A DNA stretch of 33,977 nucleotides from positions 1-33,977 of the forward strand of contig JAHIRM010000029.1 in the NCBI GenBank assembly GCA_018818595.1, written 5' to 3'. Shown one piece after another: positions 5,147 through 33,885 of the stretch. The notes under the pieces are model-generated. The model saw nothing but the letters and a program-made list of their open reading frames with translations. It did not search any database and was not told the origin of the DNA. Position numbers and translations under genes: made by a program. Within the stretch, counting starts at the first letter, position 1, and every line of letters starts with the position of its first letter. Source of the stretch: Bacillota bacterium. GTDB lineage: Bacteria > Bacillota_I > Bacilli_A > Izemoplasmatales > Hujiaoplasmataceae.

Positions 5147-5166
5147 ATTTTTAATCAATTAAAAAT

Positions 5167-6348: not shown

Positions 6349-6382
6349 AAATCCTCCTTATTATTTTTGTTGCTTTTATATA

Positions 6383-6411
6383 ATTATAGTTAATTGGACC
6401 TTCTTTGTAAA
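6383..6411 (-). promoter_or_regulatory. promoter of the BMP transporter operon
   Basis: The minus strand shows TTTACA (6406-6411), a 17-base spacer and TATAAT (6383-6388). The implied leader is only about 28 bases, so there is no room for a riboswitch. Confidence 0.7.
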
Positions 6412-6570
6412 GACATTTTGACTAATTATCAAAAAAACAAGGCTTTAATTTTATAAAATAAATCGGCAAGATATTGATTCTCGATAGAAAGTTCATTTTC
6501 ATTATTTATTAAAAAAAATTATGATTTAGTGCCTTATTTCGTGATTTTTGTTTTTAGTGAAAATAAATAA

Positions 6571-6610
6571 AAAATGTCAGCTTTTCTCGAAAGAAAAATT
6601 CTGACATTTT
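6571..6610 (-). terminator. terminator of the EF-G-like gene
   Basis: A perfect 10-bp outer stem AAAATGTCAG / CTGACATTTT encloses a second inner pairing (TTTTCT / AGAAAA). On the minus strand it is followed by T-rich sequence. It starts 16 bases after the stop codon. Confidence 0.85.
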
Positions 6611-6626
6611 TGTTTGTATTTTAATT

Positions 6627-8693
6627 TTAGTTTTGTTTTTTATGATCTTCAATGATTTTCGGAACTAAATTCCCAGGAACTTCTTCATATCGAACAAATT
6701 CTCTTGTAAATGTACCAGATCCTTGAGTCATCGCTTTTAAATCAATCGTATATTTAGTAATTTCTGCTTCTGGAACTTCTGCAACGATTTTTTGATAACC
6801 ATCATCTGCTGGTTCCATTCCAAGTACTCTACCTCTTCTTTTATTCACATCGCCCAAAACATCGCCCATGTATTCATCTTTAACTGTAACGACTATTTTA
6901 TGAATCGGTTCTAATATTGAAGGTTTCGCTGTTTTACAAGCTTCTTTAAATGCAATCCCTGCAGCCATTTTAAAGGAAAGTTCATTAGAATCAACGTTAT
7001 GATATTTTCCATCGGTTAAGATTCCATGAACTCCAATTACTGGAAAACCTGCTAAAATACCGTGTTCTAACGTTTCTTGAAGTCCTTTATCCACTGCTGG
7101 AAAATAGTTTCTAGGAACCGCTCCTCCGAATACTTCTTCTGAGAACTCATATTCTTTATCTGTTGGTTCAAAGCGCATTACAACAACTCCATAATAACCA
7201 GAACCGCCTGATTGTTTAACATATCTACCTTCTGCGGTAGCTATAGCTTTAATCGTCTCACGATATACAATTTGTTGATCTTGAGCTTCTAAGTCTACTT
7301 TGAACATATTTTTCATTTTATCTATGATATATCCTAAATGAATAATTCCTTGTCCGCCGATTAATAATTGACTTGTTTCTTTGTTTCTTTTAATTTCAAA
7401 TGTACTATCTTCTAATTGCAATTTTGAAAGGGCGTTTGAAAGTTTATCCTCATCCGCTTTATTTTTAGGATGAACCGCTAAATACATAGTAGGAGAAGGG
7501 GTTTCGGTTTTAGGATATATAATAATAGCTTTTTTATCTGATAAGGTTGCACCAGTTACTACTCCATCCATTTTTGCTACTGCACAAATATCTCCTGGAT
7601 GAACAACATCAACAGAAATTTGTGTTTTTCCCATGAGCAAGAATAATTGTCCAACTTTTGCAGTCTCTCCCGTGCTCGAAACATAAACTTCTTGATCTTT
7701 TCGTATTGTTCCGGATCGAACTTGCATAATATTAATTGTTCCAACAAAAGGATCAATCATAGTTTTAAAGACATAAGACGAAAAAGGTGCTGAATCGATA
7801 AATTTTCTTTCAACAACATCGTCGCTGTCTACTTTTGTTCCTTTACTTGGTTGTAATTCAGAAATACTTGGAAAATACTCCGATATCATATGAAGTAAAG
7901 TAAGTGGCCCAACGTCTTTTGTTGCAGATCCAACCATAATTGGAACAGCCTCTCCAGAAAGAACACTTAAATGAAGCCCTTTTTTGATTTCTGCCATCGT
8001 CAATTCTTCACCATTAAAGTATTTTTCTAATAATGATTCATCAGAACCGGCAACAGCTTCAACTAAATCTTGGCGGAGTTTTTGAACTCGTTCCATTTTA
8101 TCTTCATAAATTTCTCCATCGACACATGAGTTTCCATCATAAATTCTAGCTTTTAACTCAACGATATCGGCAAAACCACTAAATTCATCTTTTTTCCCAA
8201 TTGGTAAGCAGAAAGGTACTGCTTGTTTTCCCAATCTAGATTTAATGTTTTCTAATACCTCATCAAATTTAACATTGTCTTTATCCATCTTATTGACAAA
8301 AATAATGGCGGGTAATTGATGTTTCCTAATTTCTAACCACATTTTTTCTGCGCCGACTTCAATGCCCTTTGTAGCATCTAAAACCAACACTGCCCCGCTT
8401 GCCGCTTTAAGAGCGTAAGTGACGTCACCAATCATTTCATCAGCTCCAGGAGCATCTAAAAAGTTAAATTTAAAATTCTTAAATTCAATTGGTACAATAC
8501 TTGATGATAAAGAAGATTGTCTTGCTTGCTCTTCTTGAGTAAAGTCGGAAATAGTATTCTTCTTTTCGACTTCGCCTTTTTTTTCTGTACATCCAGATGC
8601 ACACGCCAAAGACTCTATCAAAGATGTTTTACCGCTTCCTAAGTGTCCTAAAATAATCACGTTTTTCAAAAATTCTGTAGAATATTCTATCAT
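6627..8693 (-). CDS. EF-G-like translational GTPase (FusA2-type)
   Basis: At 688 aa this has full EF-G length with all domains: G domain (1 to about 270), domain II (about 300-380), III (about 395-470), IV with VKQSGGSGYYGVV (about 485-590) and V ending in GRVLGMEPADDGYQ. P-loop GHLGSGKT is at 16-23 and G4 NKMD at 134-137. G3 reads DAPGA (80-84) instead of DTPGH, so the histidine needed for GTP hydrolysis in EF-G and EF-Tu is alanine. Switch I reads EEQARQSS rather than the EF-G QERGIT pattern. These differences mark it as an EF-G paralogue (FusA2 or 'EF-G-like' group), not the main elongation factor. The role is unknown; ribosome binding is likely. It is a single-gene unit with GAGGAG upstream of ATG. 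Confidence 0.88.
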   Translation of the reverse strand: MIEYSTEFLKNVIILGHLGSGKTSLIESLACASGCTEKKGEVEKKNTISDFTQEEQARQSSLSSSIVPIEFKNFKFNFLDAPGADEMIGDVTYALKAASGAVLVLDATKGIEVGAEKMWLEIRKHQLPAIIFVNKMDKDNVKFDEVLENIKSRLGKQAVPFCLPIGKKDEFSGFADIVELKARIYDGNSCVDGEIYEDKMERVQKLRQDLVEAVAGSDESLLEKYFNGEELTMAEIKKGLHLSVLSGEAVPIMVGSATKDVGPLTLLHMISEYFPSISELQPSKGTKVDSDDVVERKFIDSAPFSSYVFKTMIDPFVGTINIMQVRSGTIRKDQEVYVSSTGETAKVGQLFLLMGKTQISVDVVHPGDICAVAKMDGVVTGATLSDKKAIIIYPKTETPSPTMYLAVHPKNKADEDKLSNALSKLQLEDSTFEIKRNKETSQLLIGGQGIIHLGYIIDKMKNMFKVDLEAQDQQIVYRETIKAIATAEGRYVKQSGGSGYYGVVVMRFEPTDKEYEFSEEVFGGAVPRNYFPAVDKGLQETLEHGILAGFPVIGVHGILTDGKYHNVDSNELSFKMAAGIAFKEACKTAKPSILEPIHKIVVTVKDEYMGDVLGDVNKRRGRVLGMEPADDGYQKIVAEVPEAEITKYTIDLKAMTQGSGTFTREFVRYEEVPGNLVPKIIEDHKKQN

Positions 8694-12033: not shown

Positions 12034-12660
12034 TTAAAATTTATTTTCTTTATGTTGCTTGATAACTTTTTTTCGAGAAAATTCTTCTCGATCTTTTTCC
12101 TCTAAAGCATCAGAAATATATTTTATATTTTCTTCGAATTCAGGGATAACGACATTCTTTAATGCATTAGCCCTTTTTCTGCTTTTTCGAATCGCATTCG
12201 CGAGACGATATACGCTATTATCAATTTCTGCTAAAAGAATGGTTAAATCTCTCACTTTAATAAAATTAATATATGCATAGTCAAATTTTGTGTTTGTTCT
12301 TGCAATTCCATATTTAATATTTATAGGTTTAGACTCATAACTTAATTTAGGAATTTCTACACCCATTACACTTCGATAAGTAATATTTAATCCATTATCA
12401 ATGGGGATTTCTTTGGCAATATCGTTTACTACTCCTAGCCCTAATGTAATATTAGCTTCTTGAAGAGCTTGATAAGCTTTTTTATAAGTATCTGTAATCT
12501 CATCCCTAAGCAGCCTTACATTACCTATTAATGTCATCATTTCTCGGATAAGAATGTTTCGTTTTCTATCCATTAAATCATATCCTAAATGCGCTAAAAC
12601 GTTTGTTTTCTTAATTGCCATTAGATTGCCTTTGGTTGGAAATACTTGTTTAGTTGCCAT
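12034..12660 (-). CDS. ntpD: V-type ATPase subunit D (central stalk)
   Basis: A 208-aa coiled-coil subunit of the rotor shaft, which turns inside the A3B3 head and links it to the membrane ring. The diagnostic N-terminus PTKGNLMAIK ... LGYDLMDRKRNILIREM (about residues 8-41) is present, and the long C-terminal helix is rich in charged residues, with RLANAIRKSRKRANALKN typical of the family. It is the last gene of the operon; its start follows the ntpB stop by two bases, so translation is probably coupled. The length is normal. A hairpin without a proper U-tract follows (11998-12029). Confidence 0.95.
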   Translation of the reverse strand: MATKQVFPTKGNLMAIKKTNVLAHLGYDLMDRKRNILIREMMTLIGNVRLLRDEITDTYKKAYQALQEANITLGLGVVNDIAKEIPIDNGLNITYRSVMGVEIPKLSYESKPINIKYGIARTNTKFDYAYINFIKVRDLTILLAEIDNSVYRLANAIRKSRKRANALKNVVIPEFEENIKYISDALEEKDREEFSRKKVIKQHKENKF

Positions 12661-12662
12661 AG

Positions 12663-14108
12663 TTAGCTTTCGTTTGATTTAGCCAATTCTCGAATAATCG
12701 ATTTTTGCTTAATATCGAATATTTTTAAGGCTTTTTCATGGTTATAAAATTCTTTTAATACATCGTCTTCGGTGCGATCTAGTTCAGACTGCGGAAGAAT
12801 GGATAATAGATTCCAACCTAAATCTAATGTTTCTTCAATCGAGCGATTTGTTTCAAATCCTTGTGAAATGAAATGTTCTTCAAACAAATGTCCAAATTCA
12901 ATGTATTGTTTATCAATAGCTCCTAATTCATCTTCACCAATTACAGATGCTAAGCTTCTTGCGTCTTGTACTTTCGCGTAAGATGCAAATAATTGGTTAG
13001 TTAGATCTTGATGATCAAGTCTTGTGTATCCGGCCCCAATTCCATCTTTCATTAATCTTGATAAAGATGGTAGAATTCCAATCGGTGGATAAATTCCAAC
13101 TTGATGCAAATCTCTGTCTAGTACAATTTGACCTTCTGTAATATACCCAGTTAAATCAGGGACCGGATGTGTAATATCATCATTTGGCATTGTAAGAATA
13201 GGAATTTGAGTAACAGATCCTTTTGCATTCTTCACGATTCCTGCTCTCTCATACAAAGATGCCAAATCAGAGTATAAATAACCTGGGTAGCCTTTACGGC
13301 CAGGTATCTCTCCTTTACTGCTTGAAAATTCTCGCAGAGCTTCACAATACGCAGTTATATCTGTTAAGATTACTAGAACATGCATGTCGTGTTTGTATGC
13401 TAAATACTCAGCTGCAGTTAAAGCACATCTTGGAGTTAAAATTCTTTCAATAATTGGATCATTCGATAGATTAATGAACATCACAACTTTTTCTACTACT
13501 CCTGCTTCTTCAAACGAACGCTTGAAGTAATCTGCAACATCATTTTTTACTCCCATTGCAGCAAAAACAATACAAAAGTTTTTCCCATCACCTTCTGCTA
13601 TTTTTGCTTGTTTGACAATTTGAACCGCAAGTTCATTATGAGGCAGTCCTGATCCAGAAAAAATCGGAAGTTTTTGTCCTCTAATTAAAGTAGAAAGTGC
13701 ATCAATACTACTGATTCCAGTATTTATATAATTCCGCGGATATATTCTTGAAACTGGATTCAAAGGTAATCCATTAATGTCTCTATGTTCGTCAACAAAT
13801 ATAGGTCCAAGCCCATCTATTGGTTGTCCTGAGCCATTAAATGTTCTTCCTAAAATTTCTTTAGACACTCCAATTTCCATTGAATGCCCTAAAAACTTAA
13901 TTTTAGTGTTTGTAAGAGACATTTGATTCGTTCCCTCAAAAACTTGAATTGCTACTTTTCTTCCAACAATTTGAACGACCCTTCCATAACGAAGTCCGCC
14001 ATTAATTAATTGAATTTCTACCATTTCTTCAAAGCCAATGTTTTCAACATTGTCTAAAAAAATCAAAGGGCCATTGATTTCTTCTAATCCAATATATTGA
14101 AGATTCAT
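12663..14108 (-). CDS. ntpB: V-type ATPase subunit B (non-catalytic head subunit)
   Basis: With the start chosen here the protein has 481 aa and begins [15 protein letters not shown]. The open frame runs 13 codons further upstream, but GGGGAGGG lies at the right distance before this ATG, and the family normally starts here; the longer version would also overlap ntpA. Three B subunits alternate with A in the head. The protein has the B-type sequence [15 protein letters not shown] in place of a Walker A motif, plus the family-typical [22 protein letters not shown] region and a C-terminal helical domain. It is followed directly by ntpD. Confidence 0.96.
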
Positions 14109-14121
14109 ATAATCCCTCCCC

Positions 14122-15873
14122 TTACTTTGATTGATGCATAGCATCATCTATAAAGCCAAAATAATCATCAAAAAGATGAAGTTTATCGTTTGAAATATCA
14201 TATTTCATTTTAATTACTTTTTCAAAAATATTTGTTCTCGTAAGTATGCTGAATGCGTTTCCCTGTTGCAAAAATAATTGAGCTCTTTTATATAAATAAA
14301 TAATAATATCCATCATTCTTAATTGTTTCTCTAGGGGAACAAAAGTATCATCTTTATGGAAAGCGTTTTGTTGAAGAAAACCTATTCGAATAACTTTTCC
14401 AATTTCAATAATTAATTTTTGGTCATTTGGTAAAACATCACTACCAATTAGCTTTACAATTTCCATTAATTTGTTTTCTTCTGCTAACAAAGCCATAATT
14501 TGTTGACGATTTTTCAAAAAACGAACATCTACATTTTTATTGTACCATTTGGATAAGTCTCCAATATATTCGGAATAACTTAAATTCCAATTGATCGCTG
14601 CATAATGTCTTGCATAAGCAAGTTGTTTATCAAGCGCCCAAAAACAACGTACAAATCGTTTTGTGTTTTGTGTTACAGGCTCAGAAAAGTCTGCTCCTTG
14701 AGGAGATACTGCCCCTATAACTGTAACGGAACCAATTTTATGATTTAATGTTTCCATATAACCGGCTCTTTCATAAAATTGAGAGATTCGGCTTGGAAGA
14801 TATGCAGGAAATCCTTCTTCAGCAGGCATTTCTTCTAAACGACCGCTAATTTCTCTTAAAGCTTCTGCCCATCTTGATGTGGAATCTGCCATCACAGCAA
14901 CATGATACCCCATGTCTCGATAATATTCCGCAATGGTAATTCCTGTATATATACTTGCTTCTCTTGCGGCAACAGGCATGTTTGAGGTGTTGGCAATCAG
15001 AACGGTTCTATCTGTTAAAGGTTTTTGAGATTTAGGATCTACAAGTTCTGAAAATTCTTCTAAAACTTGCGTCATTTCGTTTCCACGTTCTCCACATCCA
15101 ACGTAAACAATAATATCAGCATCGCACCACTTGGCAAATTGATGTTGCATCATGGTTTTTCCAGTTCCAAAGCCTCCAGGAACAGCTGCTGTTCCTCCTT
15201 TTGCAATTGGAAAAATTGTGTCAATAATTCGTTGCCCACTTATAAGCGGAATGGAAATAGGAAGTCTTCTAGAAACAGGTCTTGGTGTTTTAATAGGCCA
15301 TTTTTGAGATAAAGTTAAAGAATGAATTGTTCCAAATTCATCTTTTACTTTAGCAATACAATCCTCAATTTGATATTTTCCATTTTTCTTAACTTCTATG
15401 ACTTCACCTTTTACATCTTGAGGAATCATCAAACGATGTTCGATAAGATCTGTTTCAGGTATAGTTGCATAAACATCTCCAAATTGAACTTGATCCTTTA
15501 TTTTAACCACAAGAGTAACATCCCATTTTCTTTCTAAATCAAGTGGGCTTACGTTGCTTCCTGTTGTGATAAAAGAACCTTGAATTTCAGCAATAGCTTT
15601 TAATGGTCTTTCGATTCCATCAAAAATATTGCGTAATATCCCTGGACCTAAAACAACAGAGATGGGTTGTCCAGATGAAAAAACTGGTTCTCCAGGTTTT
15701 AGCCCTGTTGTAGATTCATATACTTGTATGGTTGTTAAACCTCTGTTAATAGAAATGACTTCGCCCATTAATTCTTGATTTCCTACATGTACCATTTCTA
15801 GCATGGAAAACTCTGTGGCGTTCTTTACCGTCACTACAGGACCATTAACTGAAAATATTTGACTGACACTCAT
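14122..15873 (-). CDS. ntpA: V-type ATPase subunit A (catalytic head subunit)
   Basis: A 583-aa catalytic subunit of the A3B3 head, cytoplasmic. The P-loop GGFGTGKT is at 233-240, followed by [27 protein letters not shown], the usual sequence after the P-loop in A subunits. The A-specific non-homologous insertion (about 110-200) is present, so this is not an F-type beta subunit. [29 protein letters not shown] is recognisable in the second half (cited as a family signature in pieces: [14 protein letters not shown] and [12 protein letters not shown]). The start is supported by AGAGGTGG. The gap to ntpB is 13 bases. Confidence 0.97.
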
Positions 15874-15904: not shown

Positions 15905-16507
15905 TTATTTAATATATAAATTTGAATTTTCGTAAAACCATTCTTTTTTATCGTTTAATCGATAATCAATGGTTTCATCGGTCTCAATACCCATTTCAGA
16001 ACACGAAGCGATAAATCCACCCAATTCAATTTCAAAATTTTCTTGAATTTCAAATTTTCCGTTATAATTTTCTTTTATTACTTTTGCTAATAAATCATCA
16101 GCTTTTTTAATTTTAAAAATAGCGTACGATTTTAAAAATACGTTGTTCAATTCCTTTATTTTAGATTTCATTAAATCAGAGTATTGAGAAGACGTTGAAA
16201 AAACAAGTAATTTATTAAAAACTTCTTGAAAGACATTTTCTAATAATTCTTGCCGTTTTTTCATTAATTTGTGTCCGTTTTCAACATTAATTTTATTGAT
16301 TTCAAAACTGTGATTTGTTTTTAATTCCTTTAATTCAAGCGTTAAAGCGTGAGAAATGCTATCTTTTAATTCTTCATTTATTGTTTTTAACGCTTGTTCT
16401 TTCACATCTTTAATTTCTTGTGTCAATTTGTTAATTTGTTTGGTCATAGATGTACTGATTTCTAACTCAAAATATTTAAATAATTGATCATTACTAATAA
16501 ATTCCAT
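15905..16507 (-). CDS. ntpE: V-type ATPase subunit E (peripheral stalk)
   Basis: A 200-aa subunit, the usual length. The N-terminal two fifths (about 15-90) is a long charged helix with heptad character that pairs with subunit G to form the peripheral stalk. The C-terminal part is a mixed alpha/beta globular domain that binds the top of the head; the FEIELGGFIASCSEMGIETDETIDYRL segment is its recognisable part (key residues GGF near 167-169). Sequence conservation in E subunits is low, so the call rests on this architecture together with position between F and A. The start follows the ntpF stop by 10 bases. Confidence 0.85.
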   Translation of the reverse strand: MEFISNDQLFKYFELEISTSMTKQINKLTQEIKDVKEQALKTINEELKDSISHALTLELKELKTNHSFEINKINVENGHKLMKKRQELLENVFQEVFNKLLVFSTSSQYSDLMKSKIKELNNVFLKSYAIFKIKKADDLLAKVIKENYNGKFEIQENFEIELGGFIASCSEMGIETDETIDYRLNDKKEWFYENSNLYIK

Positions 16508-16517
16508 TTAAATCACC

Positions 16518-16826
16518 TCAAAGTTTTACGCCAATTGCTTCACTCACATATCTATCAATAGTTTTCCCAATTTCTGCTGATCCATGACGATCAGGAATTT
16601 CAACGATTAAAGGCTTAGGTTGTTTTAATTTTAATTCAGAAATCACTTCAGGACAAAGTTCTATTAATTTAGTCGTGATTAAAACGATGCAAATTTCTTC
16701 GTTTTCCATCGCTTTTTCTAATTCATTCAACACTTCATAACGTTCGTGAATCACAACGCCATCTATTCCAACTAGTCGCATGCCTACTTGCGTGTCTACA
16801 TTATCACTTAGTAAGAAAAATTTCAT
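16518..16826 (-). CDS. ntpF: V-type ATPase subunit F (central stalk)
   Basis: A 102-aa small rotor subunit with a Rossmann-like fold. It shows the typical opening (MKFFLLSDNVDTQVGMRLVG), the central strand ICIVLITTKLIEL, and KPLIVEIPDRHG before the C-terminal helix that inserts along the A3B3 cavity in known structures. F binds D and helps tie the shaft to the c-ring via C. The gene sits between K and E, whereas in several described operons F follows C; the order here differs because C is near the operon start. Confidence 0.92.
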   Translation of the reverse strand: MKFFLLSDNVDTQVGMRLVGIDGVVIHERYEVLNELEKAMENEEICIVLITTKLIELCPEVISELKLKQPKPLIVEIPDRHGSAEIGKTIDRYVSEAIGVKL

Positions 16827-16844: not shown

Positions 16845-17285
16845 TTATAATTTATTAATAATTAAGATTGAAATTAAAAGCCCGTAAATTGCGACTCCTT
16901 CTCCAAGAGCTACAAAGATAAGTGATTTACCAAAATTTTTCTCATTTTCAGAAAAAGACCCTATCGCGGCGGGTGCAGCTGCAGCTACGGCTATTCCGGC
17001 ACCAAGAGCAGACATTCCTGTTGCTAAAGCAGCACTTAAAAAACCTAATCCTTGCGCTATTGAACCGATAAAGGGATCAACTACTGGATCAGCAGCAAAT
17101 ACATGCACTCCAGCAAGTTGAATAATTAACGTTACAACAATTAAAGCAAAAAAACTAAAAATGTGCGTAATGAGTCGGTTTTTAGCAGGCTTTCCGCTTA
17201 TTTTCCCTCTAAAAACATTGACAAGAGGCAGTGAAATAAATCCGATAAAGAGTAATGGTAAAACAAGTTCTAATCCATCTAACAT
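16845..17285 (-). CDS. ntpK: V-type ATPase subunit K (membrane ring, proteolipid)
   Basis: A 146-aa ring subunit. The C-terminal half is the canonical proteolipid hairpin: a glycine/alanine-rich helix (about 77-110) and a second helix (about 120-144) carrying the ion-binding glutamate E129 in LGEGVAIYG. The N-terminal half is different: one hydrophobic helix (1-24), a basic loop (KISGKPAKNR) and a second helix (about 40-64) ending in FAAD, which looks like a signal-type cleavage site. Similar N-terminal extensions are familiar to me from clostridial ATP synthase subunit C proteins next to V-ATPase genes, so this is a variant and not a chimera. Whether the ring carries H+ or Na+ cannot be decided. 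It has an AGGAGG ribosome site, as suits a high-copy subunit. Confidence 0.92.
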   Translation of the reverse strand: MLDGLELVLPLLFIGFISLPLVNVFRGKISGKPAKNRLITHIFSFFALIVVTLIIQLAGVHVFAADPVVDPFIGSIAQGLGFLSAALATGMSALGAGIAVAAAAPAAIGSFSENEKNFGKSLIFVALGEGVAIYGLLISILIINKL

Positions 17286-17319: not shown

Positions 17320-19242
17320 TTATTCAAATGTTTCAAAAGCGATTCCGTTTCCTTCATAGTAACGAGAAAACATTTCGTAAAATTCTAATCTTAATACTTG
17401 TATTCCAACAATCATTCCTTCTATCGACATCACAAATAAATTCCCAAGAATAAAGATAATTGAGGTAGAAAATATATTTGTTCCCATCGACATTAGACTG
17501 TAAACAACGAGCATCATTCCTGCGTGAGATAGTACAAATCCTCCAACTCTCATGAAAGACATCGTATTGGTAATGTAAGATAATACAATTTCGAATAATT
17601 CAAAAAATCCTTCAGTTATAAATCCTCCGATTCCATTAGGAAACATTTTATTTCCATTAACTCTTCTTTGTATAGGTTCTTTAAGGAAAATAAATATTAA
17701 TGGAATTCCAACAAAGATAATTATCGTAAATAGATTAAAAATAGAAATTCCATACAATAGTTTTACAATCAATCCTCCAAAAATGAAAAGATAGAACGTC
17801 AAACCTGCAACGCCATTGTGAGAAAAAATAAATTCTATATACTTTCTTTTTTTTAAGTTGCTATATAAATTTAAAGCAATTGAAGTAATTATCAATATCG
17901 ATCCAAGCAAAACAGCGGCTATTAGTAAGTTCATCGTAAAATCCGGGCTCATTACATCGATTGGTTTTGAGCTCAATTTTAATACATTTATATAAAACGG
18001 ATTAAGTAATTCTTCATTTCCGAATACTGACCCATAAAGCAGTCCGAAAAATGCCGATGATATCCCAATACGCATTCCTATTTCTCCGAGCTTTAATTTT
18101 TTCCATTTAAAAAATATAAATCCGATTAGGACAAGCAATAATCCTTGGCCAACATCTCCAAACATAATTCCAAATAAAAGCGAATAAGTAATTGCAACAA
18201 ATGGAGTTGGATCTATATCTCCATAACTTGGCAACCCATACATTTCTACAAACATAGAAAATGGGCGACTGAACCAACCATTTTTAAGTTTTGTTGGAGG
18301 TTTTAATCTTCTATCACTATTTGCAGGACGAATTTCAATTTCTACGTCATCAATATCAGAAAATTTAGACTTAACCGTTGAAACATCTTTGGATTGGACA
18401 AATCCGGTTATTGTGAATTTATCTCCTAACCCAACAACATATTTTTTTGCTTCATAGATTTTATTTAGATACAATAACTCGCTTTTTATTGTAGCCATAT
18501 CTTTTCCTGAATCACTTAAAAGAGCATTAATACTTGTTTGGATTTTCTCTAATTGAGTTTGTGCTACTTCAATTTCTTTCGCCAAAGTAACAGTTGCTGC
18601 TTCCGGTGTCCCATGAACAAAATCGGGTATATGGATTCTTTCAAAGAAGAGCGATGAAAAAATATTATCCACTTCTCTTTCAAATTCATTGGTCGTGAAA
18701 TACATACACCAACTATAATTTTTATCAATTGTAAATGATTTAAAAATAAATGGTCTTGTTCGATAAAATTTTAATTTTTCAACACTATCCGTTGGTAATC
18801 TTCCTACTCTAGCAAAAACATAATCGCAAGAAAAAACATCATCAAGAGAGATATCTAGGCTTTCAATATTATGAACTTGAATTAAAGCATCTTGGTATTT
18901 TCTTATTAATTCTATTGTATCTTTTTTTTGAGAAACTAAATTTTTTAAAGTTACGTGTGTTGTGGATACATAAGATGTCATTTTTTCAAGTGTATAATCG
19001 ATGGTTTTTATTTCAATAACAGGAATATCAAACTCATATTCCTTTTCAATTTCAAGTAATTCATTTAATACGATATTACACGGATTATCAGAACGAAATG
19101 AAGTTAGTCCGTGAACTTGCCCAACGATTTGATTAGATGAAATAGGATGAAAGCATCTTAATTCAACAAAATTTTCTAAAACTTTATCTAGATGTTCTAA
19201 GTATGAAGTAATATTAACTAACTTGGTCTTCGCAATCGCCAT
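17320..19242 (-). CDS. ntpI: V-type ATPase subunit I (full-length stator subunit a)
   Basis: A 640-aa protein from the start chosen here (MAIAKTKLVN). The frame opens seven codons earlier, but AAAGGAGAG sits at proper distance from this ATG. The N-terminal cytoplasmic domain (1 to about 320) anchors the peripheral stalks; the C-terminal domain (about 335-630) has about seven or eight membrane helices and forms the ion half-channel. The essential arginine region reads SFMRVGGFVLSHAG, and a second conserved arginine is in VLRLEFYEMF near the C-terminus. The product is normal for the family. The gene directly upstream is a truncated copy: the two align without a gap over residues 1-316. The 62-base gap between them is the longest in the operon and has no clear terminator. 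Confidence 0.95.
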   Translation of the reverse strand: MAIAKTKLVNITSYLEHLDKVLENFVELRCFHPISSNQIVGQVHGLTSFRSDNPCNIVLNELLEIEKEYEFDIPVIEIKTIDYTLEKMTSYVSTTHVTLKNLVSQKKDTIELIRKYQDALIQVHNIESLDISLDDVFSCDYVFARVGRLPTDSVEKLKFYRTRPFIFKSFTIDKNYSWCMYFTTNEFEREVDNIFSSLFFERIHIPDFVHGTPEAATVTLAKEIEVAQTQLEKIQTSINALLSDSGKDMATIKSELLYLNKIYEAKKYVVGLGDKFTITGFVQSKDVSTVKSKFSDIDDVEIEIRPANSDRRLKPPTKLKNGWFSRPFSMFVEMYGLPSYGDIDPTPFVAITYSLLFGIMFGDVGQGLLLVLIGFIFFKWKKLKLGEIGMRIGISSAFFGLLYGSVFGNEELLNPFYINVLKLSSKPIDVMSPDFTMNLLIAAVLLGSILIITSIALNLYSNLKKRKYIEFIFSHNGVAGLTFYLFIFGGLIVKLLYGISIFNLFTIIIFVGIPLIFIFLKEPIQRRVNGNKMFPNGIGGFITEGFFELFEIVLSYITNTMSFMRVGGFVLSHAGMMLVVYSLMSMGTNIFSTSIIFILGNLFVMSIEGMIVGIQVLRLEFYEMFSRYYEGNGIAFETFE

Positions 19243-19304: not shown

Positions 19305-20330
19305 TTATTCAGATTTTTTAAACGCATTCTTAATTTTTTTGAAAATAGAAATCTGGTTATGATTTAATCTTTTTACTCTTTTCGGAGGTTTTAATCGCAA
19401 ATCTGCGTCTCCTGGTAAAATATTAATCTCAACGTCTTTCATGTCTTTAAACTTGTCAAGAATTGGCAATTCATCTTTCTCATCAATAAATCCAGTTATA
19501 GTAAATTTATCCCCAAGTCCAACCACATATTTTTTTGCTTCATATAATCGATTTAAAAAAACTAGTTCGCTCTTAACTTTAATAAAATCAGAATCATTTT
19601 CTAATAAAATTTCATGTAAATCATTCTTAATTGAGGCAAGCTGATTTTCAACAACATTAATTTCTTTAGAAAGGGTTTCTTTTGCTGCTTCTGGTGTTCC
19701 GTGCACAAAATCTGGTATAAAAATCCTTTCAAACAATAAGGAAGAAAAAACATTATCTACTTCTCTTTCATATTCGCTTGTGGTGAAATACATGCACCAA
19801 TTATAGTTTTTATCTGTGCTAAATGAAATAAAAATAAATGGCCTTGAACGATAAAATTGCAATTGATCCACACTTGCTTGAGGGAGTCTTCCAACTCTAG
19901 CATCAATGTACTCGCACGAAAATATATCATCAAGCGAAATATCTAAACTTGCTATATTATTAACTTGTATTAAAGCATCTTTGTATTTACTTAATAATTC
20001 TTTTGTTTCTTCCTCGTCCTGAAAATTATTGTTCAGTTTAGTATGAATTGAAGAAATAATATTTTTCATTTGTTCAAAAGTATAATCAATATTATCTACT
20101 TCTCTAGATAAAATGTCAATTTCAAATTGTTTCTCAATTTCAGACAATTCGTTCAAACAAGAAGTGCAAGGATTTTCAGAAACAAAGGATCTAGACCCAT
20201 GGACATGACCAATAATTTGTGCAGAAGCAACTGGTCTAAAGCACTTTAAATCGATAAATTTCTCTAACACTTTATCTAAGTGTTTTAGTCTTGCGGTAAT
20301 GTGCACTAGTTTCGTCTTGGTTACAGACAT
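19305..20330 (-). CDS. truncated subunit I paralogue, cytoplasmic domain only
   Basis: A 341-aa protein that aligns without gaps to residues 1-316 of the neighbouring full-length subunit I; by hand count 192 of 316 positions are identical (about 61%). It stops resembling it exactly after the shared LKPP (313-316), where the membrane domain begins. It then ends with a 25-residue basic tail (nine Lys/Arg) instead of transmembrane helices. It therefore lacks both channel arginines and cannot conduct ions. It has its own AAAGGAG site, an intact frame and normal operon spacing (14 bases after ntpC), so it looks maintained and not a decaying fragment. Possible roles (inference): a second docking point for a peripheral stalk, an assembly factor, or a regulator that competes with full-length subunit I. 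Confidence 0.9.
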   Translation of the reverse strand: MSVTKTKLVHITARLKHLDKVLEKFIDLKCFRPVASAQIIGHVHGSRSFVSENPCTSCLNELSEIEKQFEIDILSREVDNIDYTFEQMKNIISSIHTKLNNNFQDEEETKELLSKYKDALIQVNNIASLDISLDDIFSCEYIDARVGRLPQASVDQLQFYRSRPFIFISFSTDKNYNWCMYFTTSEYEREVDNVFSSLLFERIFIPDFVHGTPEAAKETLSKEINVVENQLASIKNDLHEILLENDSDFIKVKSELVFLNRLYEAKKYVVGLGDKFTITGFIDEKDELPILDKFKDMKDVEINILPGDADLRLKPPKRVKRLNHNQISIFKKIKNAFKKSE

Positions 20331-20344
20331 ATTGTTTCTCCTTT

Positions 20345-21382
20345 CTAAAAAATAAGCATCTTCTTTATTTCGCTTTCTTCAAGATTATATCGAATGCCTT
20401 CAATAATGTTAAATAGATTTTCTCTTTCAATTTCGTTTAATATCAAATATGCTGAAAAAACCGCAGGTGCGTCATTCGAAAAATACATATATCTTTTAGC
20501 TAAATTATATTTCATTTTTTCTGCATAATATTCGATGTAGATATACTCGTCTTCATCAATGTATTTTGCAAACTCAGAACTTTCTAAGTAATGAAGAACC
20601 GAATCAGCGTTTGGAAGTGAGATAATATCATCAAGTTTTTTGTCGCTCATTCTAGAGTATTTTGTAATTACTGCTTTTTTTATTTCTGAGAATTCAGCGT
20701 TATAAAATTTCTTTAATCTATATATTTTAACGATATTTCCAAGCTCAATCCTTGATTTGAAAATATCAAACAATTGTTTTTTGACTTTGCCTTTATAATT
20801 CTTTTCTATTTGGTCAAACACACATCCATAATAGCAAGAATCTAACTCATACTCGATATCTGCATATCGAATTTCCGAATTTTCTTTTTCTAAAAATGGT
20901 TTTAGCACTGAGTAAAAAGGCGTTTTTTCTATCGCTTCTAATAAATCCAAAAATGTCCTTGCTTTGGAGAGTAAAGTAATATCAAAACTTGCATGACGTC
21001 TAAAAAATATTGGAAATTCTGCAATAGCTTCTTCATAATTCATTGATAGAATGGCTCGAATGGAAGCCAAAATTAAATCAATTTCTCTTTGAATAATATT
21101 TAATTCATAAAAAGCTTTATCTTTTAATTCTACAAATTTAATGAGCCTTAAAGTGTAATTAAAATTCGTTTTTTTGATCAACTCTTCAAGTTGACCTCGA
21201 TGAACTGAATTTTCTTGAACATCTGAAAAAAATTCCTTATAATATTTTTTTGTTTTTAAATAGCTTACAACCTCAGAAATAGATCTTTTTTTTACTAGTT
21301 CAAGATAGTCATCTTGTTTTAGACTAGTTCCGTAGATTGATTTTGCTTTTGTAATAATAGCGTTACTAGTCCAATTACTCAT
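20345..21382 (-). CDS. ntpC: V-type ATPase subunit C (rotor-ring adaptor, AC39/d type)
   Basis: A 345-aa subunit of the vATP-synt_AC39 family, a helical funnel that connects the D/F shaft to the K ring. Seen: WTSNAIITKAKSIYG near the N-terminus, a repeated helical pattern of three bundles, FDQIEKNYKG and RIELGNIVKIYRLKKFY in the middle, which is the best conserved part of the family, and a C-terminal NIIEGIRYNLEESEIKKML. The length is typical. The gene follows the G subunit by 11 bases. Its position as second gene of the operon, away from F and E, is unlike the E. hirae ntp order. Confidence 0.9.
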   Translation of the reverse strand: MSNWTSNAIITKAKSIYGTSLKQDDYLELVKKRSISEVVSYLKTKKYYKEFFSDVQENSVHRGQLEELIKKTNFNYTLRLIKFVELKDKAFYELNIIQREIDLILASIRAILSMNYEEAIAEFPIFFRRHASFDITLLSKARTFLDLLEAIEKTPFYSVLKPFLEKENSEIRYADIEYELDSCYYGCVFDQIEKNYKGKVKKQLFDIFKSRIELGNIVKIYRLKKFYNAEFSEIKKAVITKYSRMSDKKLDDIISLPNADSVLHYLESSEFAKYIDEDEYIYIEYYAEKMKYNLAKRYMYFSNDAPAVFSAYLILNEIERENLFNIIEGIRYNLEESEIKKMLIF

Positions 21383-21393: not shown

Positions 21394-21705
21394 CTATTCT
21401 TGGATGCAGTGTTGGTAAATAGAATCAATCCACTTCTCTTTATTTTCTTTAAAGCTGATTTCTAGTTTTTTCAAGGTCAAATCATATTCTTTTTTGGACT
21501 CTTCATTTCTTTTTTCTAAATCTAGAACGATATCGCTTTTCGCTTTTTCAATAGTTTTATTTGCCTCTGATTTATACTGAATTTCTAATTTTTTTCTTTC
21601 TTCTCTAACAAAATCGCTAATCTTATCTTTCTCTTTTCTTAAATGTTCAACTTGCTTTCTTGCTTTTTTATCTAAATCAATTACGTCTCTAATTAAATTA
21701 TCCAT
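21394..21705 (-). CDS. V-type ATPase subunit G/H (peripheral stalk coiled coil)
   Basis: A 103-aa protein that is almost wholly one charged helix (Lys/Glu rich, about 8-98) with heptad spacing. This fits the stalk subunit that pairs with E (called G, H or NtpG-like in different systems). Sequence identity in this family is too low for recognition by motif, so the call rests on the size, coiled-coil character and position as first gene of the ATPase operon. A promoter candidate and small leader hairpin lie just upstream. The start is supported by AAAGGAA. Confidence 0.8.
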   Translation of the reverse strand: MDNLIRDVIDLDKKARKQVEHLRKEKDKISDFVREERKKLEIQYKSEANKTIEKAKSDIVLDLEKRNEESKKEYDLTLKKLEISFKENKEKWIDSIYQHCIQE

Positions 21706-22973: not shown

Positions 22974-23000
22974 AAAAAAGATAGTTTGTCGTAGACTATC
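22974..23000 (-). terminator. terminator after the SemiSWEET-like gene
   Basis: GATAGT-9-ACTATC stem (22980-23000) is followed on the minus strand by six T. The TGA stop codon of the membrane protein gene lies inside the first arm of the stem. Confidence 0.65.
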
Positions 23001-23292
23001 AATTAAGGATAGTTTGCTTTTCTGTCTTTTTATCAATCTTTAGATTTCTAAAATACAATATGCAATAAATCGAAACGATTGTAAAATTAAAAAAATATGC
23101 AATTAAAACATAATTAACTAACCCTGATGTGAATTTATATGCAATTCCAAAAGCATATCCAGACAAAATTAATAATCCTGAATAGATACTCACTCCTTTT
23201 GTTGTTCTCGATTTATAGGCCTTTATGCAAGCAAATGGCCAAGAAAATCCAAAACAAATCAACATTAAAAATTCTAAAATTTGTTCTGTCAT
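22999..23292 (-). CDS. three-helix membrane protein, SemiSWEET/PQ-loop-like
   Basis: A 97-aa protein with three predicted membrane helices (about 5-24, 34-54 and 61-82), the size of a SemiSWEET sugar transporter subunit, which works as a dimer. The first loop has the form PFACIKAYKSRTTKGVS, closely resembling the PQ-loop pattern P-Q-x2-K-x3-K-x2-S-T-K-G-x-S of this family except that PQ is PF. The start overlaps the end of the acyltransferase gene by four bases, so the two are co-translated. The resemblance is by eye to a short family, so transport of sugar is a hypothesis only. The lysine-rich C-terminal tail is cytoplasmic or disordered. Confidence 0.62.
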   Translation of the reverse strand: MTEQILEFLMLICFGFSWPFACIKAYKSRTTKGVSIYSGLLILSGYAFGIAYKFTSGLVNYVLIAYFFNFTIVSIYCILYFRNLKIDKKTEKQTILN

Positions 23293-24551
23293 AATAAATC
23301 ACTTCCACTAAGTTTATTTGCTTTCTTTATTTTATATATTTCCTCTGTTGCAAAGTGAAGTTTTGTCACAACGTTCTTTTTAGATAAAGGATAAATATAA
23401 TACGTGTCGTTTAAAGTAGATAAATCAATACAATCTCCTTTATTTAAATAATCATATTCAATGTGCAAAGAATAAGTAGATAACGGATCTTTGTCTAATT
23501 GAAATAGTTCTCCGTCGAAATTTCCTTGTACATGAAATCCACTTATATCATGGAGAAGCGAAGCGGTACCTAAACGAATATAACCTTTGGAATTTGGTAA
23601 AGAATCAACTGCAACTTCATCTTCAAATCGATAGGTATTATTTAGAATTTGCATTCTAACGTTTTCTCTTTCAAATTCATACCAATCAGGTATACGGGAA
23701 AATTCTGTTTTTCCTTCAAGGGCTTTTATTCTTCCAAATTCATCCATAGAGTAACGTTTTTGACAATGATTACACCAAATTTCGTTTCCATCTGAATCCA
23801 TTTCATGTTCTGTCAAACAATTTGGACATAAGTATAGTACTTTGTGCAATCCTTTTGCTCGATCAACAAAATCTATTTTTTGGTTTGTTTCTAATTGAAA
23901 TTTATATTCATCATATTGAAAGGCGTCTACAATTCTACTGTTAATTTCTTTGCTTAATAGTAAATGTATTTCTTCTTGAGTAACAATTTGAGTCATATCG
24001 GCACTTAAACGAACTTTTCGCTTTTTAAGATTCCATACAGGTTGACTTAAATAATCTCCATGCATATTTAAAACCACTACAGGTACTTTCATTAATTTAC
24101 ACATTTTCCCTAAGGAATCTGGCAAAATGGAAGTGGTCCCGCATAAAGAATATCTAGCCTCAGGATAAATAATACAAATTTGTTTGTTTACTTTCAAAGA
24201 ATGTTCTACTTGCCTTACAAGTAATATATCATTTGTAAATTTTCTTTTACAGATGCATCCAACATCTCTTAATAACTTTTCTCGTTTAATGAATCCATCA
24301 ATTGCAACGATGTAATTGGCTTTTTTCGGAAATATCGCAGCTGTAGTTACGGAAAAATCGATAAATGCATGGTGAGTACATAATAATATATATGGAGGTT
24401 TTAGTCCCTTCATATTGTTTTTGTTAATTTTCAAATGATGGGCCCAAACCGTTGGAAAAGAAACCAACCAAGTGATGGGAATTAAGTACCATTTTTGTTT
24501 CTTTGGTTTTTGAATCATATCGAAGCGAATTTCATTAGAATCATTCATCAT
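23289..24551 (-). CDS. PlsC-type acyltransferase with C-terminal zinc ribbon
   Basis: A 420-aa protein. The N-terminal half is a lysophospholipid/glycerol-phosphate acyltransferase domain: the catalytic H-x4-D motif is H60-D65 (THHAFIDF) and the substrate motif is YPEAR (129-133), the variant of EGTRS. A membrane-associated segment (about 20-35) precedes it. After residue 235 there is a zinc ribbon with C242, C245, C260 and C263, then a beta-rich domain of about 150 residues that I do not recognise. PlsC itself is about 240 aa, so the C-terminal 180 residues are an addition. It should transfer an acyl chain to a lipid precursor at the inner membrane face. A hairpin stands just before its ribosome site (24573-24605). 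Confidence 0.83.
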   Translation of the reverse strand: MMNDSNEIRFDMIQKPKKQKWYLIPITWLVSFPTVWAHHLKINKNNMKGLKPPYILLCTHHAFIDFSVTTAAIFPKKANYIVAIDGFIKREKLLRDVGCICKRKFTNDILLVRQVEHSLKVNKQICIIYPEARYSLCGTTSILPDSLGKMCKLMKVPVVVLNMHGDYLSQPVWNLKKRKVRLSADMTQIVTQEEIHLLLSKEINSRIVDAFQYDEYKFQLETNQKIDFVDRAKGLHKVLYLCPNCLTEHEMDSDGNEIWCNHCQKRYSMDEFGRIKALEGKTEFSRIPDWYEFERENVRMQILNNTYRFEDEVAVDSLPNSKGYIRLGTASLLHDISGFHVQGNFDGELFQLDKDPLSTYSLHIEYDYLNKGDCIDLSTLNDTYYIYPLSKKNVVTKLHFATEEIYKIKKANKLSGSDLL

Positions 24552-26517: not shown

Positions 26518-28635
26518 ATGTTGAAACAAATAGTAAAAAGAGACCAGACCGTTGTCCCATTTCGAAAAGAGAAAATAGTTCTAGCAATTTTCAAATCAGC
26601 TAGTTCAGTCGGTGGTTCAGATTTTTCTAAATCAGAACAACTAGCTAATGAAGTTGTAAAAATTGCTGAGGAAAAATATCCAAACGGAACTGCAGATGTT
26701 GAAGGAATTCAAGACATCGTTGAAAAAGTCCTTATCGAAAACGGACATGCAAAAACAGCAAAAGCTTACATATTATATCGTGAAAAACGGCGAGCATCTA
26801 GAGAAGCAAATGCTTTGATTGGTGCAACGATTGATATGTTTACCGAATATTTAAATGATCGCGACTGGCAAATCAACGAAAATGCCAACACTCAAAAATC
26901 TATTAATGGCCTTAACAATTATGTTCGTGAAGAATTCACTAAGAATTATTGGCTTCATGAAATATATCCTCAAGATATTCGTAATTCACACATTAATGGA
27001 GATATCCACATTCATGATTTAGGCTTTTTTGGTCCTTATTGTGCTGGTTGGGATTTAAGACAAGTTATTACAAATGGATTTGGTGGTGTTTCCAATAAAG
27101 TAGAATCTCTACCTCCAAAGCATTTAAGATCTCTTTTAGGACAAATTGTAAATTCAACTTTCACAACTCAAGGTGAATCAGCTGGAGCCCAAGCTTGGTC
27201 CTCTTTTGATACTTATTTAGCTCCTTTTGTTCGATATGACAATCTAGACTATAAACAAGTCAAACAAGCTTTACAAGAGTTTATCTTTAATCTTAATGTT
27301 CCTACAAGAGTTGGTTTTCAGTGTCCATTTTCAAATTTAACATTTGATATTATTCCACCTTCTACTCTTAAAAATCAAAGCGTTATATACGCAGGAAAAT
27401 TAATGCCTGATTTATATGGCGATTTCCAAAAAGAAATGGATATGATTAACCTTGCGTTTTGTGACGTTATGATGGAAGGCGATGCAAAAGGCAGAGTGTT
27501 TACCTTTCCCATCCCTACGATTAACGTAACAAAAGACTTTGCATGGGATAGTCCTGTAGTAGAAAAGTACATGGAAATTACTGCAAAATATGGAATCCCT
27601 TATTTTTCTAATTACATTAATTCGGACTTATCTCCCGAAGATGCGTTGTCAATGTGCTGTAGACTTCGTCTTGACACTACTGAACTTCGCAAAAGAGGTG
27701 GAGGTTTATTTGGATCCAATCCTTTAACCGGGTCTATTGGAGTCGTGACTATTAATCTTCCAAGACTAGCTTACATATCAAAATCTGAATCCGAATACTT
27801 TACTAGACTTTGGGAAACAATCAATCTCGCAAAAAAAAGCTTAGAAATTAAACGTAAAATTATTGAAGAACAAACCGAAAAAGGATTATACCCATATAGC
27901 GCAAATTATTTAAAAGACATCAAACTAAAAAGTGGCTCTTATTGGTTTAATCATTTTAACACCATTGGTCTCATTGGAATGAATGAAGCAATTCAAAATT
28001 TGTTTGGAAGAGAAGTTGATTTAACCTCCTCTCAAGGCCAAGCTTTCGCTGTTAAAACCTTAAATTATATGCGCGACATTATAAAGGATATTCAAGAAGA
28101 AACTGGCCATTATTATAATCTAGAAGCTACTCCTGCAGAAGGAACTAGTTACCGACTTGCAAAACATGATAGAGAAAAATTCCCTGATATTATTGCTTCA
28201 GGCACGGATACTCCTTATTATACTAATTCAAGTCAATTGCCAGTAGGATTTACAGATGATATCTTTGAAACTTTAGACCTTCAAGATGAACTACAATCCC
28301 TCTATACCGGAGGAACTGTCCTTCATTTGTATTTAGGTGAACGGGTGAAAGATACCAAAACAACAAAAGCGTTAATTAAAAAGGTATTCGAAAAGTATAA
28401 ACTTCCCTATATTTCAATTACTCCAACTTTTTCAATTTGTAATGAACATGGATACATTTCAGGCGAACATTTTAATTGTCCAACTTGCGGCAAACCTGCA
28501 GAAGTATACACACGTGTTGTTGGATACTTACGTCCAGTTCAAAATTTTAACAAAGGCAAAAAAGCAGAATATCATGATCGAGTTAAATATGTTATTAAAG
28601 CAGATGCCCCAAATATTGAAGGCTCAAAAGCATGA
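26518..28635 (+). CDS. nrdD: anaerobic (class III) ribonucleoside-triphosphate reductase
   Basis: A 705-aa glycyl-radical enzyme that converts ribonucleoside triphosphates to deoxynucleotides without oxygen. Domains: an N-terminal ATP-cone (about 2-92) for allosteric control of activity; a ten-stranded barrel with active-site cysteines in GFQCPFSN and in the SMCCRLRLD region; a C-terminal zinc site (CNEHG ... CPTCG); and the radical loop RVVGYLRP with glycine 669. The length and order are normal. GGAGG stands at good distance before ATG. The stop overlaps the nrdG start (ATGA), which again shows TGA as stop. The presence of class III enzyme indicates an anaerobic or facultative life style. 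Regulation is likely through the palindrome over its promoter. Confidence 0.97.
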   Translation: MLKQIVKRDQTVVPFRKEKIVLAIFKSASSVGGSDFSKSEQLANEVVKIAEEKYPNGTADVEGIQDIVEKVLIENGHAKTAKAYILYREKRRASREANALIGATIDMFTEYLNDRDWQINENANTQKSINGLNNYVREEFTKNYWLHEIYPQDIRNSHINGDIHIHDLGFFGPYCAGWDLRQVITNGFGGVSNKVESLPPKHLRSLLGQIVNSTFTTQGESAGAQAWSSFDTYLAPFVRYDNLDYKQVKQALQEFIFNLNVPTRVGFQCPFSNLTFDIIPPSTLKNQSVIYAGKLMPDLYGDFQKEMDMINLAFCDVMMEGDAKGRVFTFPIPTINVTKDFAWDSPVVEKYMEITAKYGIPYFSNYINSDLSPEDALSMCCRLRLDTTELRKRGGGLFGSNPLTGSIGVVTINLPRLAYISKSESEYFTRLWETINLAKKSLEIKRKIIEEQTEKGLYPYSANYLKDIKLKSGSYWFNHFNTIGLIGMNEAIQNLFGREVDLTSSQGQAFAVKTLNYMRDIIKDIQEETGHYYNLEATPAEGTSYRLAKHDREKFPDIIASGTDTPYYTNSSQLPVGFTDDIFETLDLQDELQSLYTGGTVLHLYLGERVKDTKTTKALIKKVFEKYKLPYISITPTFSICNEHGYISGEHFNCPTCGKPAEVYTRVVGYLRPVQNFNKGKKAEYHDRVKYVIKADAPNIEGSKA

Positions 28636-29324
28636 TCTTTGCCGGAATCATTAAAACTTCTTTAATTGATTATCCGGGAAAAATAGCTACTGTTTTATTT
28701 ACTCCAGGATGTAATTATAACTGCTTTTACTGTCATAATCGGAGTTTAATTGAAGATTTTAATGAATTGGTATCGGTTGATGAAATTGAAGACTTTTTAA
28801 AAAAACGTCAAGGGTTAATTGATGGCGTTGTTATAACGGGAGGAGAACCAACTCTTCATGCAGATTTAATTGCTTTCTTTAAAAAAATTAAAGATTTAGG
28901 TTACTTTACAAAATTAGATTCAAATGGATCTAATCCTGAAATTATTAATGCTTGTGTTCAAGCCAAAGTGGTGGATTACTTCGCAATTGACTACAAAGCT
29001 CCAAGTGAAAAATACTCAGAAATATGCCGTGGAGATGCTAATCCTTCAAAAGTATTGGATACAATTAATTTATTACTGAAATATAATCAAGATTTTGAAG
29101 TAAGGACAACCGTGATTCCTCAACTTTCAATTGAAGATTTGATCAAAATGTCTGAAGAACTTCCTCAAATACCAAGATATGTCTTAAACCCCTATCAAAA
29201 ACCATTCAATTTTCTTGAAAAAGACCAAAAATTCATTGATGTTCCTCCTTACTCAGAAAAACAAATTGCAGAATTTGCAGAAACATTAAAATTATACCAA
29301 CCAAATGTCGTTTTATTATTTTAA
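28632..29324 (+). CDS. nrdG: anaerobic ribonucleotide reductase activating protein (radical SAM)
   Basis: A 230-aa radical SAM enzyme that makes the glycyl radical on NrdD, using S-adenosylmethionine and a 4Fe-4S cluster. The cluster motif C-x3-C-x2-C is C27, C31 and C34 (GCNYNCFYCHN). VVITGGEPTLH follows at about residue 66, the GGE motif that binds the methionine part of SAM. At 230 aa it is longer than E. coli NrdG (about 155) and belongs to the longer form common in Firmicutes. Four-base overlap with nrdD ensures coupled translation, and a strong terminator follows at 29323. Confidence 0.95.
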   Translation: MIFAGIIKTSLIDYPGKIATVLFTPGCNYNCFYCHNRSLIEDFNELVSVDEIEDFLKKRQGLIDGVVITGGEPTLHADLIAFFKKIKDLGYFTKLDSNGSNPEIINACVQAKVVDYFAIDYKAPSEKYSEICRGDANPSKVLDTINLLLKYNQDFEVRTTVIPQLSIEDLIKMSEELPQIPRYVLNPYQKPFNFLEKDQKFIDVPPYSEKQIAEFAETLKLYQPNVVLLF

Positions 29325-32439: not shown

Positions 32440-33666
32440 TTACTTATAGAGTCTATTGGTACTCAACAAACCAAAGATAAGACGAATAAGTTTTCTAGCA
32501 GTTAAGGCGAGGGCACGTTTGTGTTGATGCGTTGTAACTTCATTATATTTTTTGTGATAAAAGTCACGATATTCAGGAATATGAATTCTTGTAAGATTAG
32601 CCGCTTCGATTAAGAAGTAACGTAAATACTTATTACCTGTTTTAGTCATATAAGTATCATCAGCAGTATATTTGCCAGACTGATTTTTACGCCAAGTGAT
32701 TCCAGCGTATTTGGCTAAAGCGGAGTGAGAGGCAAATTGATTAATATCAGCAATTTCAGCTAGGATGCCGGCAGCGTAAACCTTACCGATTCCAGGTATA
32801 GAAGTTAGAACTTGGAAGTGATCATGATTAAAACCAGCAACTTGATTGGAAATAGCATTATCAATCTCTTTAAGCTCGTTTTGATAACATCTAATGACAT
32901 TAATAGAAGACGCAAGAGACAAGTTAATAGGATCATAAGCTACTTCATCTAATCGATAAGAAGCACGTGCTGCCTTTTGGATTTTAGCAGCTACGTCAAT
33001 GGAGCTATCAAAACGATTCTTACTAGATTTAGCAACAAAGTCAGCTAAATCTTCTAAAGATGAATTAATAATGTCATCGATAGATTTGTATTCTAACAGA
33101 AGATCAACCGCTGTCGTCCCGAAGTTATTAGAGAACAAAGTTTCAAAGTTAGAGAACTTTAAAAACACGTTGTTTAGGGCATAAGTCTTCTCATTAGCAA
33201 GCTTTTCAGCAATATGAAGTCTATGTCTGGTGAGTCTTTCTAAAGCGAGCCTTTGGCCGCCTTTGAACGGTGTGAGTTCATCACATCTACCAACTCTAGC
33301 AATATCAGCTAGTACATAAGCATCTTTAGGATCAGTCTTATCCATGTCCGCAAAACTCTTCCTGTAATTCTTAGAGATTTTCGGATTAATGATATAAACT
33401 TTTATCTCAAAAAGGCTTAAATATTTTGAAGCGGATAGATAAGTTGCGATGTGAGCAGAGTAGACGCCAGTAGATTCTAAAATAACGATCACTTTAGTAA
33501 AATTGTGTTTTTCAAGTAACTGAAGTAAGTGTGATTCAATTTGATTCGCACCATCCTGGGTATTAGGGATATTGATAGACAATAACTTATCACGATCTAG
33601 GTTAAGACAATAGACGTGATTGGTAAGTTTAGCAACATCAATACCAACAAATAAAGTATGATTCAA
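32440..33666 (-). CDS. IS110-family transposase (DEDD recombinase)
   Basis: A 408-aa protein from a TTG start at 33666, chosen because AGAAGGTG precedes it and the family normally begins just before FVGIDVAK; an ATG 28 codons upstream exists but has no ribosome site and lies in the leader. The RuvC-like domain has the catalytic set D10, E64 (LESTGVYS), D112 and D115 (KTDPKDAYVLAD). A helical linker (about 140-275) follows. The Transposase_20 domain has the helix-hairpin-helix SIPGIGKVYAAGILAEI (289-305), then S330 in NQSGK, the likely serine nucleophile, and TGNKYLRYFLIEAAN. It is complete, without frameshift, so the element may be active. Known relatives work with a bridge RNA from the same element. 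Confidence 0.95.
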   Translation of the reverse strand: MNHTLFVGIDVAKLTNHVYCLNLDRDKLLSINIPNTQDGANQIESHLLQLLEKHNFTKVIVILESTGVYSAHIATYLSASKYLSLFEIKVYIINPKISKNYRKSFADMDKTDPKDAYVLADIARVGRCDELTPFKGGQRLALERLTRHRLHIAEKLANEKTYALNNVFLKFSNFETLFSNNFGTTAVDLLLEYKSIDDIINSSLEDLADFVAKSSKNRFDSSIDVAAKIQKAARASYRLDEVAYDPINLSLASSINVIRCYQNELKEIDNAISNQVAGFNHDHFQVLTSIPGIGKVYAAGILAEIADINQFASHSALAKYAGITWRKNQSGKYTADDTYMTKTGNKYLRYFLIEAANLTRIHIPEYRDFYHKKYNEVTTHQHKRALALTARKLIRLIFGLLSTNRLYK

Positions 33667-33699
33667 AGTAACACCTTCTTTCAAGGGAATTAGATATAA

Positions 33700-33885
33700 G
33701 AGAAGTCCTAGCCTTGGAAGACAACTGCAGCCTCGCCAATAAGAAAACACCGTTAGCTATAAAGTTGAGTTAGAACTAACGGGTAACAACAACCGGTTAG
33801 CAGATAAGTCAATCAAGCAGGTTTGCAAGCTTATAAGGCACCTAGAAGTGCAAGGAGATGAAGCAGATTCTTCTGGTTACATCTT
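33700..33885 (-). ncRNA. candidate bridge RNA of the IS110 element
   Basis: About 185 bases of structured leader before the transposase, close to the 177 bases of the IS621 bridge RNA. Stem CCGTTAG / CTAACGG (33750-33756, 33776-33782) competes with CTAACGGGT / ACCGGTTAG (33776-33800, one mismatch). Three segments (33826-33836, 33790-33800, 33702-33711) match sequences at the element's two ends in guide-like orientation. The RNA start is set from the extended -10 at 33892; the 3' end is a guess. Confidence 0.6.

Follow-up and report, generated by a model that had tools for sequence, protein, structure and literature searches.

A channel-less second subunit I encoded in V/A-ATPase operons of Bacilli: a candidate additional stator arm

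The collar of bacterial and archaeal V/A-ATPases is taken to consist of subunit I only, with two peripheral stalks, and the eukaryotic V-ATPase has three stalks together with extra collar proteins of unclear origin. The operon analyzed here raises the question of what a cell might do with a second, separately encoded subunit I that keeps the cytoplasmic arm and has no ion channel. It lies in a window of 33,977 nucleotides (contig JAHIRM010000029.1, assembly GCA_018818595.1, from a Bacillota bacterium), by which we mean the whole stretch of DNA that was analyzed. The V/A-type ATPase operon in this window is complete and runs on the minus strand in the order G-like, C, I', I, K, F, E, A, B, and D (Table 1), where I' denotes the additional gene.

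Table 1. Features of the V/A-ATPase operon in the window
Feature	Position	Strand	Remarks
I'	19305..20330	-	Cytoplasmic domain of V/A-ATPase subunit I as a separate protein of 341 aa, without the membrane domain
Tail of I'	19305..19382	-	Codons of the 25-residue basic tail plus stop codon, in place of the membrane domain; amphipathic stretch IFKKIKNAFKK
Ribosome-binding site of I'	20331..20345	-	AAAGGAG; adjoins the stop codon of subunit C
Subunit I	17320..19242	-	Full length, 640 aa from ATG 19242; both channel arginine motifs, SFMRV and QVLRL
Subunit C	20345..21382	-	AC39/d-like rotor cap, 345 aa
Stalk subunit G (probable)	21394..21705	-	103 aa, first gene of the operon; named from its position and from homologues in related operons; no Pfam match
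Subunit K	16845..17285	-	c-ring
Subunit F	16518..16826	-	
Stalk subunit E	15905..16507	-	Sole copy found in the genome
Subunit A	14122..15873	-	Catalytic
Subunit B	12663..14147	-	
Subunit D	12034..12660	-	Rotor axle

The I' reading frame starts with ATG and is intact over its 341 codons. Its product aligns without a gap to residues 1 to 316 of the adjoining full-length subunit I with 192 identities (61%), and both copies reach the motif LKPP at residue 316, the border of the membrane domain, beyond which the two sequences diverge. Past this motif I' carries only 25 residues, KRVKRLNHNQISIFKKIKNAFKKSE, with a net charge of +8, and the protein ends there, so that the channel arginine motifs are found in the full-length copy alone. 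I' is a paralogue of one domain of subunit I and is incomplete as a subunit I. At the nucleotide level the two genes are 67% identical, with the third codon positions the most diverged (51%), which fits the expectation for a protein under constraint. A ribosome-binding sequence, AAAGGAG, is present just upstream of the I' start codon and a second AAAGGAG precedes the full-length gene; a TTG at position 19263, considered as the start of subunit I, was dropped in favor of the ATG at 19242 that follows this second site. The preliminary description of this DNA had reported the gapless alignment, the stop at the LKPP border, the separate ribosome site and open frame, and the place inside the operon upstream of the intact copy; its count of identities was exact on recount, and its central claim, a separate channel-less subunit I within a V-ATPase operon, proved to be real. 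The Pfam model of subunit I (PF01496) gave no match over the cutoff for I', compared to 93.9 bits for the full copy, where the best stretch covered residues 184 to 389.

To see how widespread the gene is, we turned to the family of the window (family f1), which comprises 34 genomes, 24 of them with subunit I. I' was present in nine of these 24, spanning three genera (1/1 genomes in genus g1, 3/3 in g3, and 5/5 in g9), and absent from the genomes with subunit I in genera g6, g7, g8, g10, and g11, so that close sister genera have very similar operons without it. The expectation that relatives would have the short copy at the same place thus held for eight related genomes, in which it is intact, and failed for these five genera. 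Wherever subunit C is on the contig the order is C-I'-I, the frame is open in all nine genomes, and the ribosome site directly follows the stop codon of C in every case. All nine proteins end 4 to 25 residues beyond the same domain border. The 25-residue tail described initially occurs only in the window genome, the relatives having 4 to 13 basic residues; the basic character of the C terminus, on the other hand, is common to all soluble copies of the family. An apparent third copy in one genome (G012) was set aside, as what lies at the second contig end is the same gene in a nearly identical form, probably owing to a mixture of strains. In G032 (genus g11; locus L056, 6287-9148), several frameshifts and stops interrupt the genes for subunits C and I, whereas those for K, F, E, A, B, and D are intact; this V-ATPase operon is either in decay or poorly assembled.

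The ratio of nonsynonymous to synonymous substitution was 0.05 to 0.18 for close I' orthologue pairs with usable dS, far below the value near 1 that the preliminary description had named as refuting its claim; for the pair from G023 and G031, dS is saturated and dN is 0.16 to 0.18. I' does evolve faster than the matching domain of subunit I (distances of 0.49 to 0.52 versus 0.28 to 0.29), as would also be seen in a relic without function left by a recent tandem duplication. Such a relic, or an assembly error at the stop codon, has next to no probability, however, since I' is intact in nine separately assembled genomes that reproduce the position of the stop, the ratio is far below 1, invariant residues are kept, and all nine genes have their ribosome site; we regard both explanations as ruled out. 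I' is an intact gene under purifying selection, set for cotranslation with stator and rotor genes. We also looked for relaxation of the arm of full-length subunit I in genomes that have I' and saw none, which indicates that I' adds a task rather than sharing one.

The AlphaFold2 model of I' (pLDDT 82) shows the cytoplasmic two-lobed arm with a long coiled coil, in agreement with the alignment to full copies. It consists of a proximal lobe (residues ∼1 to 54 and 269 to 316), a coiled coil (55 to 127 and 213 to 268), and a distal lobe (128 to 212). The best structural match is subunit I (a) of Thermus thermophilus (6r0z chain N, Z score of 17.5; also 6qum chain N and 3rrk), with the same fold over the whole domain. 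A profile built from the nine I' proteins and searched against all PDB chains retrieved no V-ATPase chain at E values up to 1 and gave chance matches only. The distal lobe is the best-kept part of I', with 64% identity among the copies versus 32 to 46% elsewhere, and it keeps 30 of 38 invariant residues; in the proximal lobe and the coiled coils of I', conservation falls far short of that in the full copy.

We then searched several hundred more genomes of the same class and phylum by profile, covering two families in full, and found additional channel-less second copies of subunit I in other families of Bacilli. The preliminary description knew of no described bacterial counterpart to I', and none turned up in the papers accessible to us, but the gene is not unique. 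In family f15 a second copy was found in 37 of 42 genomes with subunit I. These proteins are mostly of 409 to 535 aa, keep the arm and some membrane helices, and lack TM7/8, stopping before the segments that bear the channel arginines, both of which are missing. They resemble the window gene in being an extra arm copy without either arginine, placed at C-I'-I in most of the f15 operons read, and differ from it in that most of them keep several membrane helices, in their separate origin, and in the distant location of the gene in some genomes. It lies far from the V-ATPase operon in G072 (L076) and G220 (L083) and likewise on another contig in G441, of the same genus as G220. One f15 genome (G573) has a fully soluble second copy of 324 aa. 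In family f12, three genomes of genus g67 encode a soluble copy of 334 to 340 aa between G and C, and another genome (G213) has a very divergent 325-aa copy with a basic C terminus between C and I. Most invariant residues of the distal lobe are retained in the g67 (0.87) and f15 (0.72) copies as well.

The arm-domain tree with the best sampling places the short copies of g1 and g3 with the full copies of g1, g3, and g8, those of g9 with the g9 full copies (97/93), and those of g67 with the g67 full copies (99/96), and the f15 second copies form a clade of their own; the short copy of G213 was left out because its branch length of 4.8 made placement unreliable. AU tests rejected a single clade of all short copies (P = 3e-5), of g67 with f1 (P = 4e-6), and of g67 with f15 (P = 3e-5). 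These results indicate that channel-less copies arose at least four times by separate duplication, as judged from the sequences. Within family f1, the tree of the other subunits and the membrane half of subunit I requires three changes of I' presence, and the absence in g8 is likely a loss. A single ancient duplication in this family, with the copies homogenized through gene conversion and several genera losing I' later, would explain why g1/g3 and g9 have the same border, the same position, and the same ribosome site, and why both lineages have a cysteine-bearing basic tail, found in seven of the nine copies; the tails of g3 and g9 are the one observation that favors conversion. It would require, though, that conversion spanned the entire domain, given that the tests reject a single f1 clade both over the whole domain (P = 2e-4) and in each of three domain segments (P = 0.006, 0.007, and 0.02), and rejection in every segment argues against partial gene conversion. 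For the f12 and f15 copies, a shared duplication is further opposed by their different position or border. We therefore consider one duplication in family f1 unlikely, without dismissing it, and separate duplications the better account.

Subunit I holds two stalks in known V/A-ATPases and the A3B3 head offers three equivalent sites, so that anchoring a further stalk would be the simplest function of an additional arm. Our tentative proposal, to which we give a little less than an even chance, is that I' is a genuine extra stator subunit, a channel-less second arm that docks an additional peripheral stalk. I' would sit on the membrane surface beside Vo, anchored by its basic C-terminal end or, in the f15 version, by the remaining membrane helices; we infer this location because the C termini are basic in the soluble f1 copies and in the G213 copy and because helices persist in f15. 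Its distal lobe would dock one E-G stalk, and with this third stalk the stator would become stiffer and more symmetric. In this respect the action of I' may resemble that of eukaryotic subunit C, even though its origin lies in subunit I.

In Thermus, both globular lobes of the cytoplasmic domain of subunit I bind an EG stalk (PMC7367684), and the conservation of the distal lobe favors the stalk anchor among the functions proposed for I'. This conservation is not specific to stalk binding, since in isolated Thermus Vo both lobes of the arm, the distal one included, are in contact with rotor subunit d, and the arm prevents rotation (PMC7367684). The weaker conservation of the proximal lobe and coiled coils of I' speaks against a stalk anchor, as do the sister genera that manage without it, and in two f15 genera the copy is encoded away from the operon, a location that fits a stoichiometric subunit less well. 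No extra E gene for a third stalk was found: all 23 genomes with an E match had just one, and any third stalk would hence draw on the same E gene.

Two other functions, a regulator and an assembly factor, both of which the preliminary description had also put forward, would fit the sequence data nearly as well. I' could be a trans-acting regulator, a free arm that binds the rotor cap (C/d) or the EG stalks upon separation of head and ring and keeps the ring from turning or the head from working, in the manner of the attached arm in isolated Vo. The contacts of the arm with d and the arrest of rotation in that complex (PMC7367684), the well-kept distal lobe, and the patchy distribution of the gene, including its unlinked copies in two f15 genera, are all in line with this. 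Yet the I' gene lies among those for structural subunits, flanked by C and I, has a strong ribosome site, and comes with no regulatory gene or domain attached, and regulated disassembly is not reported for bacterial V/A-ATPases (PMC7367684); on balance a regulator seems rather unlikely. An assembly factor, which would take up EG or subunit C early, pass them to subunit I, and be absent from the finished enzyme, appears less probable again. The gene lies upstream of I and so is made first, beside C or between G and C, and the domain looks competent for binding without having a channel. However, close sister genera build the same enzyme without I', and the several membrane helices of the f15 analogue would be odd for a soluble chaperone.

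For the proposal of a second stator arm, the closest parallel, in function and not in family, may be eukaryotic subunit C (Vma5). This is a soluble stator protein made of head, coiled coil, and foot. In yeast it holds the third EG stalk, with EG3 contacting only its head, and A-ATPases are reported to lack a homologue of it (PMC6131620). Foldseek aligned I' to Vma5 (1u7l) with an E value of 5.8e-8, and comparison with the I' model gave a Z score of 8.9 over 203 residues with an rmsd of 7.6, but the unrelated prefoldin scores 9.3. As the structural score does not rise above the background of unrelated coiled coils, homology to Vma5 is not claimed, and no sequence relation was found when the I' profile was searched against PDB chains; I' derives from the subunit I of its own operon. 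Compared to subunit I of V/A-ATPases in general, I' is a separate and additional protein without membrane domain or channel arginines. The eukaryotic subunit a isoforms (Vph1/Stv1 and a1 to a4) are also paralogues of subunit I/a, but they are full length, have their own channel each, and replace one another, whereas I' is unable to replace subunit I.

A literature search, to which most subscription papers were inaccessible, returned no description of a separate channel-less, duplicate, truncated, or second bacterial subunit I. What surprised us is the repeated origin of the channel-less arm. It is possible, if on the unlikely side, that several lineages of Bacilli independently evolved a channel-less second collar arm carrying a third stalk, repeating the step that gave eukaryotes their third stalk and subunit C. 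Arms evolved repeatedly in this way would be living examples of collar enlargement, and with them one can test which came first, a third stalk or a detachable regulator. Such genes may be labeled as truncated subunit I by automatic annotation.

Beyond its charge, the tail of I' shows a further feature. In seven of the nine family f1 proteins (L035, L036, L006, L039, L040, L041, and L044), a single cysteine lies 0 to 5 residues from the end of the short basic tail, in proteins of an enzyme in which cysteine makes up 0.65% of residues; the window protein and that of G008 have no such tail. This cysteine-bearing tail is common to two apparently separate duplications, those of g1/g3 and g9.

The surroundings of the operon offered some minor observations. 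Upstream of it (window positions 22999 to 24551) are genes for a 97-aa small membrane protein, labeled SWEET-like, and a plsC-like acyltransferase; G002 has both genes upstream of its operon too, and G015 and G022 also have a plsC homologue. From their translations, we recognized a probable BmpA-type nucleoside ABC transporter with lipoprotein, ATPase, and two permeases (1177 to 6348), an apparent anaerobic ribonucleotide reductase NrdD with its activase NrdG (26518 to 29324), and, at the contig end, an apparent IS110-type transposase (32440 to 33750). Contig C19 of G000 carries two more ATP-synt_ab genes near each other (5425 to 8433; 509 and 498 aa), as would fit an F-type ATPase encoded in that genome.
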